Below, one piece after another: positions 31,360-42,992 of a stretch of DNA of 54,680 bases. This DNA comes from Patescibacteria group bacterium (lineage in GTDB: Bacteria; Patescibacteriota; Patescibacteriia; UBA1558; UBA10009), in contig JAHITV010000045.1 in assembly GCA_018817315.1 (NCBI GenBank), forward strand, positions 1-54,680, given 5' to 3'. Every line of letters begins with the position of its first letter. Position 1 is the stretch's first letter. The position numbers were made by a program, and so were the translations under genes. The notes under the pieces were generated by a model that was given only the letters and a program-made list of their open reading frames with translations, made no database searches and was not told the origin of the DNA.

Positions 31360-31740
31360 CTCATTCAAGTTTAGATGATCGCTCCGCCAAGTCTGACTTG
31401 GCGGGGAGGAAAGTCCGAACACCATATTAAGGATAGTTGGTAACGCCAACCGCCGTGAACCGCAAGGTGCATGGTAGAACAAGTGCAACAGAAAATAGGT
31501 CTATTCGTGAACCAAAGGTATACCTTTCACGAATTGAGAATGAAATGGTCCACTAAGGAGTGGACCTGTCCCGTTGGTGACAACGGGAAAGAGGTAAACT
31601 TTTATCCGGTGCAACTCCAAGTAGGTCCCTGAGTAGGGGCGGGTTGGAGGCATGACCCTGTCCGGCAACGTTCAGGGCTAGATAGATGATCATCACCCAC
31701 CAATGGTGGGCACAGAATTCGGCTTATTAACTTGAGTGAG
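31360..31740 (+). ncRNA. rnpB: RNase P RNA, bacterial type A
   Basis: This catalytic RNA removes the 5' leader of tRNAs. The ends pair (ctcattcaagtt at 31360-31371 with aacttgagtgag at 31729-31740) as P1. The universally conserved P4 strand GAGGAAAGTCCGAAC lies at about 31409-31423, and its partner region ACAGAATTCGGCTTA lies near the 3' end at about 31712-31726. The GGTAAAC and GTGCAACTCCAAGTAGG blocks of the specificity and core regions are also visible. A terminator follows directly. The rnpA protein gene is not in the window. Confidence 0.93.
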
Positions 31741-31750
31741 TATTTAATTT

Positions 31751-38217: not shown

Positions 38218-40893
38218 ATGAAAAAGACAAAGATAAGTCATTCTAAAAAGAATAGCCAGACAAAAAAAAGTAAAATCAGCAAAAGATCATCAGTCAAAAA
38301 ATCAAAAAAAGATAATTTAGCGTCATTGGCTGTTAAAGACAAACAAGCAGTTATACAGCTTGAACATTTTTTAGTAGATGAACAAATTAGTTATTCAGAT
38401 GGTTTTTTAGAGAATAAAGTTGAACAGATTTCGGGTCAGGTAAATCAATTAGGAGAAGAGAGGATAAATAGCGATTCTTCTTTGCCTTTGGAAGAGAAGA
38501 AAAAGCAGGAGCTTTTGCCTCAAAATGAGATTAAAATTTATTTGAATAAAGAAGGGCGCACAATTAAGAAAAAGAAAACTTATAAACAGTTCAATTCTGC
38601 TTATTTAATTAATCTAAAAGAAGAGGAAAAACATTTTCCTAAGTTTAAAAAACCACCCTCTTCTAGATTCAAGTCTTTATTCCAGCCATATGATGAATTT
38701 GCTAAAGATTTTACTGATGATAATAAATTTACTATTCCTGCCACCTCTTTAATTAAAAAGAAAAGCTTGATTGAATTTTTGGATGAGTTTGGTGTTAAAG
38801 TACATAAGTGGTATAAAAATTTATTTAAAGCTAAAAAAAAGGAAAAACCGGCTTTTACTTTTGTCCAACAAAAAAGAACAGAGGGATTTTTAGTTAATCT
38901 AAAATTTGCTCTTAATTTTGCTCTTATTGCTTTGCTTTTAGTCCTGCCCATCAGAGGGATATTTTTTTATGAACATTTAGCTAAAACTAAAAATAAGGTT
39001 TCGCTTTTCAGTCAAGCTGCCTGGCAAGAGATTAAACAGGGTGCAGAAGCCGCTACTCAAGCTGACTGGCAAAACGCCGCCGTAAATTTTAGCACTGCCA
39101 ATAATTATTTTGCCGAGGCCCTGGTAGCTATGGAAGATAATAATCGCTCATTAATGGATATAATTAAGGTGATTCCGGCGGCCGGTCAAAAGGTAACATC
39201 TGCTCAAAACTTGCTTATGGCCGGCAAACATCTCACGACCGCTGCTCAAAATTTGGCAGGAGTTTTCTCCCAAACTAAACCAGATGACAGTTTAGGTGTA
39301 ACTACTTCGGATGGTTTGGCTTTTATCCAAAATGATTTAACGATGGCTAAGGAAGATTTAGACCAAGCCCTTAATTATTTAGCCAAAGTTGACCCTAAAG
39401 TCTTACCGGTAGAGTACCGCGATTATTTGATAGAAGTGCAGTCAAAATTGCCGCAGTTGCGGAAAAATTTAGATCAGGGCAGCGAACTTTTTAGCTTGGC
39501 TTTGGACGTTCTGGGCCATAATTCACCCAAGCGATTTTTATTTATGTTCCAGAATACTAACGAGCTTAGAGCCACGGGCGGTTTTTTTGGCAGTTTGGCT
39601 CTGGTAGACATTGAAGACGGTAAGATTATTAATTTGGAAGTGCCAGCAGGCGGCTCTTATGATTTAAAAGGTTATTTTACAGAAAAAATAATTTCTCCTG
39701 AACCTTTGCACTTAGTGGGAACAGCTTGGGAAATTTGGGATGCTAATTGGTGGCCTGATTTTCCCACTTCAGCCAAAAAAATAACCTGGTTTTTTGAAAA
39801 ATCCGGCTGGCCATCTGTTGATGGTGTAATTGCTTTTAATTCTTCCTTAATACCTGAACTTTTAAAAATTGTGGGTAATATTGAAATGCCTAAATATAAT
39901 AAGGTTTTAACTCCAGATGATGTAGTACTGGCTTTGCAACATGCCACTTTATTTGAATATGATAAGGAAGAAAATCAACCTAAAGAGATTATTAGTGATC
40001 TGATGCCGATTTTAGTTGAGCGATTATTGTCTGTTCAAACAGAGCAAACCCTGCCTTTACTGTTAACTTTAAATGAAGCTTTTAAAAATAAAGATGTTCA
40101 GCTTTATTTTGCTGATTCCTCAATGCAGGCCAAAGCAAATAATTTTGGTTTAACCGGAGAATTATTGCCAGCCCAAAAAGATTATTTGGCAGTTATTGAT
40201 ACTAATATTGCCGGCGGCAAAACCAACGGCGTGATTGAACAAAAGATCAATCACTATAGTTATCTTCAGGATGATGGTAGTATTATTGATACTGTTGCTA
40301 TTACCAGAACTCATTTAGGAAATCCAGATGATGTTTTTGAGAAAGTAAACAATGTATCATATTTAAGAGTCTATGTGCCTTTAGACAGTCAACTGATAGA
40401 TGTAACCGGTTATAATCCGCCGACAAGAGATTTATTTAAGAGAGTTTATGAAAATTTTTATAATGATGAGTATCTACAGAAAATTCAGGGAAAAGTTACA
40501 GTTGATCCGCAAAGCGGTACAAGAATTAATAATGAGTTGGGCAAGACTGTTTTTGGCAACTGGATTCAAGTAGAGCCGGGACAGTCAGAAACAATAACCT
40601 TTTCTTATCGTTTACCTTTTAAAGTCAAGGAGCATCAATCTTTTTTTAGTAAGTTGCTTGGCAAATTAAAGAAGGGGAGTTCAACTGATTTGGCAACTTA
40701 CAGTTTACTGGCCCAACGTCAATCCGGAACTGATAATGTTTCGCTAAAAAGTATTTTATTCTTACCTTCTAATCTGCATGTTAAGTGGTTAGATAATACC
40801 CAAGAGAGTAAATTGGTTATTTCTGATAAAGGCGTTGATTTTACTTCTACACTTGATTCTGATCAGTATTATGCTGTGGTATTAGAAAAATAA
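38218..40893 (+). CDS. DUF4012 domain-containing membrane protein
   Basis: The product is 891 residues. The first ~200 residues are cytoplasmic, Lys/Ser-rich and poorly ordered. One membrane helix lies at about 229-248. The outside part begins with helices and then holds the DUF4012 domain from about 440, marked by FMFQNTNELRATGGFFGSLA. The C-terminal part contains beta-rich segments such as WIQVEPGQSETITFSYRLPF. DUF4012 proteins occur in Actinobacteria and Patescibacteria, often near polysaccharide export genes, and their role is not known. Its position after the glycan block fits a part in surface glycan attachment, which is inference only. Confidence 0.85.
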   Translation: MKKTKISHSKKNSQTKKSKISKRSSVKKSKKDNLASLAVKDKQAVIQLEHFLVDEQISYSDGFLENKVEQISGQVNQLGEERINSDSSLPLEEKKKQELLPQNEIKIYLNKEGRTIKKKKTYKQFNSAYLINLKEEEKHFPKFKKPPSSRFKSLFQPYDEFAKDFTDDNKFTIPATSLIKKKSLIEFLDEFGVKVHKWYKNLFKAKKKEKPAFTFVQQKRTEGFLVNLKFALNFALIALLLVLPIRGIFFYEHLAKTKNKVSLFSQAAWQEIKQGAEAATQADWQNAAVNFSTANNYFAEALVAMEDNNRSLMDIIKVIPAAGQKVTSAQNLLMAGKHLTTAAQNLAGVFSQTKPDDSLGVTTSDGLAFIQNDLTMAKEDLDQALNYLAKVDPKVLPVEYRDYLIEVQSKLPQLRKNLDQGSELFSLALDVLGHNSPKRFLFMFQNTNELRATGGFFGSLALVDIEDGKIINLEVPAGGSYDLKGYFTEKIISPEPLHLVGTAWEIWDANWWPDFPTSAKKITWFFEKSGWPSVDGVIAFNSSLIPELLKIVGNIEMPKYNKVLTPDDVVLALQHATLFEYDKEENQPKEIISDLMPILVERLLSVQTEQTLPLLLTLNEAFKNKDVQLYFADSSMQAKANNFGLTGELLPAQKDYLAVIDTNIAGGKTNGVIEQKINHYSYLQDDGSIIDTVAITRTHLGNPDDVFEKVNNVSYLRVYVPLDSQLIDVTGYNPPTRDLFKRVYENFYNDEYLQKIQGKVTVDPQSGTRINNELGKTVFGNWIQVEPGQSETITFSYRLPFKVKEHQSFFSKLLGKLKKGSSTDLATYSLLAQRQSGTDNVSLKSILFLPSNLHVKWLDNTQESKLVISDKGVDFTSTLDSDQYYAVVLEK

Positions 40894-40922
40894 TTAAAAT
40901 AATTAAATGATAAAAATAATTT

Positions 40923-40946
40923 TTGGCTAAGATTAGCCAAATTTTT
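40923..40946 (+). terminator. Intrinsic terminator of the DUF4012 gene
   Basis: ttggcta (40923-40929) pairs with tagccaa (40934-40940) around a 4-base loop, followed by ATTTTT. Confidence 0.75.
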
Positions 40947-40967: not shown

Positions 40968-40996
40968 TTGACAAACTTTTTAAATTATGATATACT
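40968..40996 (+). promoter_or_regulatory. Very strong promoter ahead of a structured transcript
   Basis: TTGACA (40968-40973) and TATACT (40991-40996) are 17 bases apart, and TGA precedes the -10 box as an extended element. Start of transcription is predicted near 41003. No recognised protein gene begins within 400 bases. Confidence 0.7.
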
Positions 40997-41002
40997 GTTT
41001 TG

Positions 41003-41209
41003 TTAAGTAAAATATAACTTTGTAAATTGAATAATTTAAATGATGGTTACTGGAGGGAGAAAGTCTTTCATGCTTGGGCTTGGTGGACTAAAAGATAATA
41101 TTTTAGCTTTATTTTTCGGTCAGAATCTCTTTCTTGACTGAAAATTGCTAAATTTTATCTGGTCCCGTATAACTGGGCTTTGCTCAGTATAAGCGGGTAT
41201 TCGCCCTCC
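41003..41209 (+). ncRNA. Candidate structured non-coding RNA of unknown family upstream of murJ
   Basis: A closing stem ggaggg (41052-41057) with ccctcc (41204-41209) encloses at least three hairpins: ctaaaa/ttttag (41088-41106); an 11-bp stem 41113-41123 with 41134-41144; and a long interrupted stem 41164-41197 whose inner actgggc/gctcagt arms (41172-41178, with a 3-base loop) and outer cccg/cggg arms stack. A very strong promoter lies just upstream. It lacks the signatures of RNase P, SRP RNA and tmRNA that I know. It could be a stand-alone sRNA, a 6S-like RNA or a riboswitch-like leader for murJ. An ORF of 33 codons (41040-41141) overlaps it and is an alternative reading. Confidence 0.5.
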
Positions 41210-41258
41210 GTTAATTTTCTTTTAGAATTAGTAAAATAAAAATTATATATAAATCTTA

Positions 41259-41332
41259 AAAACTGAACTTTAAGTGATAACCTACTATAATATAAATTAA
41301 AAGAGGTGATCATAATCAAAGTTCAGTTTTTT
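41259..41332 (+). terminator. 13-bp perfect inverted repeat ending in a T-run
   Basis: aaaactgaacttt (41259-41271) pairs perfectly with aaagttcagtttt (41318-41330), and TT follows. The 46-base loop contains the Shine-Dalgarno-like word agaggtgatc. It could terminate the structured transcript started near 41003 or act as an attenuator before murJ. Confidence 0.5.
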
Positions 41333-41347
41333 GATATAGTTATTTTA

Positions 41348-41356
41348 TGTTATAAT
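41348..41356 (+). promoter_or_regulatory. Extended -10 promoter of murJ
   Basis: TGT-TATAAT, with flanks identical to the DUF4012 gene promoter. The start near 41363 places a 9-bp hairpin (aaacctcaa 41366-41374 with ttgaggttt 41382-41390) at the very 5' end of the mRNA. Confidence 0.6.
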
Positions 41357-41408
41357 TAAAGAACCAAACCTCAAGGAAGTTTTGAGGTTTATTTTCAATA
41401 AATTTAAT

Positions 41409-42992
41409 ATGTTAAGAATTTTTTGGACTAAGTTAGTAACTACGGTAACTGGTGGCGCTGTTTTAATTGCCGTTTTTAATATTATTAGTAGACTGTTGGG
41501 TTTATATCGGGATCGTTTGCTGGCATCGTACTTTGGTGCCGGTGCTTTGCTGGACAGTTATTATGCGGCTTTTAAAATACCTGATTTGATTTTTAATACT
41601 TTAGTGTTAGGAGCTTTGGCTTCTGCCTTTATACCAGTTTTTACCCAAGTACTGCAATTAGATCGCCAACGTGCTTATCAGATTTCTAATATCATTTTAA
41701 ATTATTTGCTGGTTATAATTTTAGTTTTTAGTTTTATCTTTTTTATCCTGGCACCGTTTATTGTTCCGCTTATTGCTCCTGGTTTTTCCGGCGACCAACT
41801 TTTACAAACCATTGCTTTGACCAGAATTATGCTTTTAAGCATTATCTTTTTTACTGCCAGTAATGTTGTTGGCAGTATTTTAAATTCTTTTAAAAAGTTT
41901 TTTACTTTTTCTTTGGCTCCGGTTTTTTATAATTTAGGCATAATCTTTGGTATAACTGTTTTTTATTCTTTTTGGGGACCGTTAGGACTTGCCTGGGGCG
42001 TAGTCTTTGGCTCTTTTCTTCATTTATTGATTCAACTGCCGGAAGTTAAAAGATTAGGTTGGCGTTACATGTGGCAGTGGCAGATTACCAAAGAAGTGAA
42101 AAGAATAATGAAATTGATGGTTCCCAGGGTTATAGGTTTAGCAGGAAGTCAAATTAATCAATTAGTGATTACGGCGATTGCTTCTACTTTGATGGTGGGC
42201 AGTGTGGCTATTTTTAATTTAGCCAATAATTTACAAAGTTTTCCTATTTCTATTTTTGGCGTGTCACTGGCTATTGCCATCTTTCCGGTTTTTAGTGAAG
42301 CTATTGCCAGCAATGACCGCCAACGTTTTGTGGCAATTTTTTCGGTAAATTTTAGAAGAATACTTTTTTTAATTATTCCTTTATCAGTCTTTATCCTTTT
42401 GTTGAGAGCACAGATCGTTAGAGTCATCTTGGGTTTTGGAAATTTTGATTGGCAGGATACCTACTATACTGCCCAAACTTTGGGCTGGTTTGTTGTTTCT
42501 TTATTTGCTCAAAGTTTAATTCCTATGCTGGCTCGTTCTTTTTATGCTTTGGAAGACACCAAGACGCCGGTTCTGATCAGTCTTTCTGCCATTGCTTTGA
42601 ATATTATTGGCTCGGTGATTTTAGGAAAATTATTAGGAATAGAAGGTTTGGCTTTGGCTTTTAGTTTAGCAGCCATAGTTAATATGCTGGCCCTTCTCTT
42701 TATTTTAAGGTTGCGTTTGGGTTATTTAGGTGATAAAAAAATAATTAAATCTGTTTTAAAAACCTCTTTTAACTCTATTTTGGCAGGTTTAGCTGTTTAT
42801 GGTACTTTAAATTTACTGTCTTTAGTTGTGGATATGAGAACTTTTTGGGGTATTTTTACTCAAGGAGCAGTGGCTGGTTTAGCGGGTTTAGCAGTTTACT
42901 TTTTCTTAAGCGCTATTACTAATTGTGAGGAAATAATTCTGGTTAAAAAATTCTTACAACGTTATTTACAGCCATTAATATTTAAAAAATAA
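41409..42992 (+). CDS. murJ: Lipid II flippase MurJ
   Basis: The 527-residue protein has about 14 membrane helices and flips the peptidoglycan precursor lipid II across the membrane. The N-terminal pattern NIISRLLGLYRDRLLASYFGAGALLDSYYAAFKIPDLI... (first part residues 20-39) is characteristic of the MurJ/MviN family, with the conserved Arg residues of the central cavity. The frame extends back to a TTG at 41382, but that lies inside a 5' hairpin only about 20 bases after the predicted transcription start, so the ATG at 41409 is preferred. Confidence 0.92.
   Translation: MLRIFWTKLVTTVTGGAVLIAVFNIISRLLGLYRDRLLASYFGAGALLDSYYAAFKIPDLIFNTLVLGALASAFIPVFTQVLQLDRQRAYQISNIILNYLLVIILVFSFIFFILAPFIVPLIAPGFSGDQLLQTIALTRIMLLSIIFFTASNVVGSILNSFKKFFTFSLAPVFYNLGIIFGITVFYSFWGPLGLAWGVVFGSFLHLLIQLPEVKRLGWRYMWQWQITKEVKRIMKLMVPRVIGLAGSQINQLVITAIASTLMVGSVAIFNLANNLQSFPISIFGVSLAIAIFPVFSEAIASNDRQRFVAIFSVNFRRILFLIIPLSVFILLLRAQIVRVILGFGNFDWQDTYYTAQTLGWFVVSLFAQSLIPMLARSFYALEDTKTPVLISLSAIALNIIGSVILGKLLGIEGLALAFSLAAIVNMLALLFILRLRLGYLGDKKIIKSVLKTSFNSILAGLAVYGTLNLLSLVVDMRTFWGIFTQGAVAGLAGLAVYFFLSAITNCEEIILVKKFLQRYLQPLIFKK

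Follow-up and report, generated by a model that had tools for sequence, protein, structure and literature searches.

The non-coding gap upstream of murJ in the Patescibacteria genome analysed here encodes a conserved structured RNA that belongs to no described family (RNA-1), and in related genomes the same gap also holds a second undescribed RNA (RNA-2), which is found class-wide and usually in a single copy. Judging from their sequences, both most likely function as stand-alone RNAs that act by base pairing. We give a probability of roughly 0.45 to the specific form of this reading, in which RNA-1 would be a stand-alone non-coding RNA that pairs with RNA, RNA-2 a trans-acting small RNA, and RNA-1-type modules its antagonists or partners. 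Bacteria of the candidate phyla radiation are known mostly from their genomes alone, and RNA regulation in them is, to our knowledge, largely undescribed; a literature search for structured or regulatory RNAs in CPR/Patescibacteria found nothing relevant.

The window (the whole stretch of DNA that was analysed, 54,680 nucleotides) comes from a member of the Patescibacteria, within the candidate phyla radiation, with a 1.05-Mb draft genome that is about 92% complete (G000). Three other genera of its family are represented by G001 (contig JAHISB010000044), G002 (contig LCKE01000019), and G003; families carry arbitrary labels (f1 for this one, f36, etc.) that are not taxon names. Within the window, 515 non-coding bases separate a gene for a DUF4012 protein (38218-40893, on the forward strand like all features described here) from murJ (PF03023; 41409-42992, with its ATG at 41409), which is followed by lepA. 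A DUF4012-type gene is likewise located upstream in G002, G003, and a further genome, G102. A terminator-like sequence, TTTGGCTAAGATTAGCCAAA, lies 3' of the DUF4012 gene at 40922-40941, and similar hairpins, TTAGCCAA, occur at this place in several relatives. The near-consensus promoter with an extended -10 element that had been proposed in a sequence-only reading of this DNA was recovered at 40968-40996 as a sigma70-type TTGACA-17-TATACT, matching at 11/12 and with TG before the -10. By eye, TTGACA-type promoters also precede the RNA-1 region of G001 and G002.

The DNA that follows the promoter folds with -66.9 kcal/mol over 41003-41220 (z = -5.9 against 200 shuffles) and with -96.1 kcal/mol over 41003-41340 (z = -8.2, with none of 100 shuffles equally good). 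These values bear out the several good stems, an interrupted hairpin among them, that the earlier reading had described, but its one structured region is really two separate units, at 41042-41219 and 41258-41332. The first of these is RNA-1, which begins 45 nt downstream of the promoter and is closed by helix P1, whose 5' strand GATGGTTACTGGAGGG (41042-41057) pairs with a 3' strand at 41204-41219 that runs into a U-rich tail. P1 contains the GGAGGG/CCCTCC closing stem expected from the sequence (41052-41057 with 41204-41209) and extends it outward to 41042/41219. A purine box, GGAGGGAGAAAG, occupies 41052-41063; at this place G001 and G002 have GGAGGGAGAGAG, and G003 has GGAGGGGGAGAG. The P2 hairpin (41062-41089) has been rebuilt from different sequence in three of the four species, while P3 (41093-41160), the long interrupted hairpin, has three compensated pairs in its top helix. 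Within the apical loop of P3, AATCTCTTTCTT (41124-41135), the letters UCUCUUUC are invariant in all four species and resemble the RNA-2 motif. The last hairpin, P4 (CCCG...CGGG, 41164-41197), is missing from G001 and present in the other three.

RNA-1 was confirmed as a real conserved structured RNA by comparison with its relatives. A BLAST search with the stretch matched the family mate G002 (4e-7) at the equivalent place upstream of murJ, and copies in G001 and G003 were recognised on inspection, with murJ downstream in 4/4 cases. Common to the four copies are the closing UGGAGGG/CCCUCC helix, a sequence-variable P2, and a long P3 with UCUCUUUC. A leave-one-out covariance model built from G001-G003 only finds 41042-41219 with 90.4 bits (E = 1.5e-21), compared with 23.8 bits for an antisense decoy. 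In the four-sequence alignment, 89% of the cells are paired and nine pairs have changed on both sides, and both the covariation score and the percentage paired exceed those of all 500 shuffles and all slid controls, values that are to be read with n = 4 and a structure derived from those same four sequences. In P1, 98.6% of the cells are paired and three pairs show two-sided changes among the four species. Compensatory changes in related genomes, which had been suggested as a check on the fold, were thus found in both P1 and P3 across four genera. The Rfam covariance search suggested alongside came back empty, with nothing at gathering cut-offs in Rfam 15 and merely sub-cut-off chance matches at E<=10. 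The distribution of RNA-1 is narrow: a search of 36 genomes of the order and 381 of the class returned only G000-G003 and a weak match in G102 (35-38 bits). The latter is syntenic and keeps UUAUUGGAGGG/CCCUC in a 1179-bp DUF4012-murJ gap with several hairpins, and it is only suggestive of an RNA-1 copy. A hit in G020 (32 bits) was rejected, as it lacks GGAGGG and does not rise above antisense decoys (28-35 bits). In G004, a fifth family member that is 72% complete, the murJ match was not found.

RNA-2 lies between RNA-1 and murJ in G001-G003. It is a rod-shaped hairpin of about 110 nt there, typically AAAAAGCUGCG...CGCAGCUUUUU, and bears an unpaired, nearly invariant 14-letter strand, AAAUCUCUCUCCUC. 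Across the 381 class genomes the pattern AAAWCTCTCTCCTY has 86 sites and its reversed control 13, and 55 of 83 examined motif sites are unpaired in folds with z<-3, mostly intergenic and spread over some 30 families, a family count taken from the pattern matches. Relative to the tip hairpin, the motif strand is found on the 3' side, on the 5' side (as in Kerfeldbacteria, among others), or within the apical loop, so it is the exposed strand that is conserved and not its position. In the RNA-2 of one family, 25 of 42 consensus pairs are compensated and the motif is invariant. A model from that one family finds RNA-2, under strict filters and nearly always as a single copy, in 60/381 genomes, belonging to f1 (G001 and G002), f10, f11, f12, f19, f26, f27, f36, f43, f55, f61, f63, f89, and others; based on the exact 14-mer and this one model, the prevalence figures are lower bounds. 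Searches against Rfam returned nothing for ten RNA-2 loci at E<=1 and for one at E<=10. RNA-2 is followed by murJ in several families, at a distance of 127-370 nt, and elsewhere its neighbours, named by eye from translations, are rpoB, the end of rpoC, ftsK, or a greA-like gene with lysS. As these neighbours vary, RNA-2 is probably a free-standing RNA gene rather than a murJ leader, and promoter-like sites about 80-130 nt ahead of the motif in many loci suggest that it may often be its own short transcript. Interpreting the motif as the reverse complement of a Shine-Dalgarno sequence on the opposite strand was rejected as a general explanation, since a start codon and open frame accompany it at just 6 of 55 structured sites. 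Occurrences of the motif outside the class were mostly dismissed as well: among 30 loci examined, about three are structured (L249, L269, and L272) and the rest are due to chance. These three are RNA-2-like rods with the motif, and L269 has the same GCUG..CAGC closing stem. A further observation concerns the Kerfeldbacteria MAG contig PEXU01000004 (L071:783-3000), in which the DUF4012-murJ gap comprises 2.2 kb of non-coding DNA with repeated hairpin modules (UUGGAGG..CCUCCAA, with flanks AAAGA/UCUUUC) and ends in a permuted RNA-2.

At the RNA-2 position in the window (41258-41332) there is an inverted repeat, a hairpin without AAAUCUCUCUCCUC. Its arms, AAAAACTGAACTTT (41258-41271) and AAAGTTCAGTTTTTT (41318-41332), are about 46 nt apart, and it ends in six T. 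The 13-bp inverted repeat with a T-run of the sequence-only reading is therefore present, but it spans 14 bp and, given the distance between its arms, is not a compact intrinsic terminator. The RNA-2 covariance model has no match in G000, and none of the near matches checked elsewhere in this genome (about 92% complete) is a structured copy of the motif. The hairpin is likely a degenerate copy of RNA-2 that has lost its motif. Beyond the T-run, a TATAAT (41351-41356) and a 5'-end hairpin AACCTC..GAGGTT (stem 41366-41390) agree with the idea that murJ has a promoter of its own, though the -35 is weak and the site is absent from the promoter-scan list. A CCTCA/TGAGG hairpin stands at the equal position before murJ in G001, G002, and G003, and this conserved element is probably the 5'-end leader hairpin of murJ.

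The purine box of RNA-1 has two potential partners. It can pair with its own P3 loop (UCUCUUUC) in all four species, at a predicted -11 to -14 kcal/mol, and its predicted duplex with the RNA-2 motif (CUCUCUCC) amounts to -16 to -18 kcal/mol in G001-G003, compared with -2.7 in G000, where the motif is gone and the box is now GGAGGGAGAAAG. Near the 55 structured RNA-2 loci, GGAGAGAG occurs 16 times in the 1 kb upstream, often a few tens of nt past a TTGACA promoter, while it is found zero times downstream and once in the reversed control. The best complement of the motif is also stronger upstream than downstream (p = 9e-5), a bias that was not seen around unstructured motif loci. These findings support the view that an upstream purine box may pair with RNA-2. 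Other points weigh against it. A strong upstream complement is present at some structured loci only and the partner is not always adjacent, so that box pairing cannot be the entire function of RNA-2. Because the box doubles as a strand of P1, pairing with RNA-2 would open that helix. The drift of the box along with the motif was seen once, in G000, and the motif is too invariant for box/motif covariation to lend support.

In the reading that we prefer, RNA-1 would be a stand-alone transcript from the 40968-40996 promoter, with four helices closed by the long P1, and would act by RNA-RNA pairing, without ligand sensing for murJ. RNA-2, acting in trans as an sRNA, would use its invariant pyrimidine loop to bind ribosome-binding sites of the GGAG type, and RNA-1-type modules would be its antagonists or partners, as in a sponge model. 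RNA-1 might alternate between an internal pseudoknot of box and P3 loop and pairing with RNA-2. As RNA-2 has decayed in G000, RNA-1 would be left there with the internal form only, its box having drifted to GGAGGGAGAAAG and its own loop still being matched. We are doubtful about a broader version, in which a single-copy CUCUCUCC-loop sRNA would act on ribosome-binding sites across the class and be regulated by GGAGAGAG-box partner RNAs. If true, such a system would amount to a global circuit of post-transcriptional control in a group of bacteria from which the literature searched describes no regulatory RNA. The analysis adds a pair of RNA families that had not been described, both supported by covariation, of which one is widespread and as a rule present once per genome, together with a candidate pairing code that is explicit.

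The main rival to pairing between separate RNAs, drawn by analogy with GOLLD and ROOL, makes RNA-1 and RNA-2 parts of one bigger scaffold RNA with a structural role, in which kissing between GGAGAGAG and CUCUCUCC would either close the molecule or join several copies into a multimer. We consider this rather unlikely, as promoter-like sites lie so close ahead of the RNA-2 motif and the upstream complement is missing at many loci, yet it would fit the several loci in which a TTGACA promoter is followed within a few tens of nt by GGAGAGAG and then, ahead of RNA-2, by many hairpins, as well as the repeated modules of the Kerfeldbacteria gap, and kissing loops in GOLLD and ROOL provide a precedent (PMC12286853). 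The sequence-only reading had left the choice between a separate small RNA and a leader sensing envelope status. The former is favoured, and a cis-acting leader or riboswitch for murJ seems improbable. Although RNA-1 is always directly before murJ in f1 and RNA-2 precedes MurJ in several families, this tie is positional only, and murJ has its own TATAAT and leader hairpin after the T-run to 41332. In other families RNA-2 precedes rpoB, ftsK, or lysS or follows rpoC. In many order mates, moreover, DUF4012 and murJ are spaced by 1-18 bp and the RNA is absent, and no Rfam riboswitch was matched.

Less probable again is a diverged housekeeping RNA, either SRP or 6S. The small SRP RNA model RF00169 was detected in 0/95 class genomes while most controls match it, and the SRP RNA of the class is either very diverged or missing; RNA-2 is, in addition, usually a single-copy rod (about 110-140 nt) near housekeeping genes. 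However, at E<=10 neither RNA-1 nor the one RNA-2 searched scored with an SRP or 6S model, nor did the ten RNA-2 loci searched at E<=1; the 6S covariance model left RNA-1 and RNA-2 loci unmatched, and neither RNA has the RF00169/domain IV motif of bacterial SRP RNA. The tip loops and stems of RNA-2 are also unconserved, with only the CUCUCUCC strand kept and switching sides of the tip hairpin. Next to no weight falls on a short coding gene or on chance folding of AT-rich DNA, which we regard as refuted. A 33-codon ORF does exist at 41040, and the sequence-only reading had pointed to its possible conservation, but G001-G003 have no homologous ORF; with reading frames unconserved, it is not a gene. 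Together with the z-scores (-5.9 and -8.2), the recovery of RNA-1 by the leave-one-out model (E = 1.5e-21), its covariation, and the lack of an Rfam match, this upholds the original call of a structured RNA of no known family.

Among known structured RNAs, the class A RNase P RNA (RF00010) is also encoded in the window (31362-31742, 204 bits), at a separate locus and with no resemblance to RNA-1. GOLLD, ROOL, and OLE are comparable to RNA-1 and RNA-2 as folded non-coding RNAs of poorly understood function that may engage in long-range or intermolecular kissing (PMC12286853), although the modules described here are much smaller, have no association with phages or tRNA islands, and lack Rfam similarity. 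The closest likeness of RNA-2 is to the alpha-r14 sRNAs of rhizobia, such as NfeR1, which expose an ultraconserved, unpaired anti-Shine-Dalgarno loop, CCUCCUCCC, on diverging stems (PMC10746234). Like these, RNA-2 presents an ultraconserved pyrimidine motif of anti-Shine-Dalgarno type, unpaired, on highly variable stems. In contrast to them, it carries AAAUCUCUCUCCUC once per RNA, forms a single long rod rather than three hairpins, belongs to a different phylum with no detected homology, and has a putative purine-box partner RNA nearby, so that RNA-2 resembles the alpha-r14 family in design and not by ancestry.
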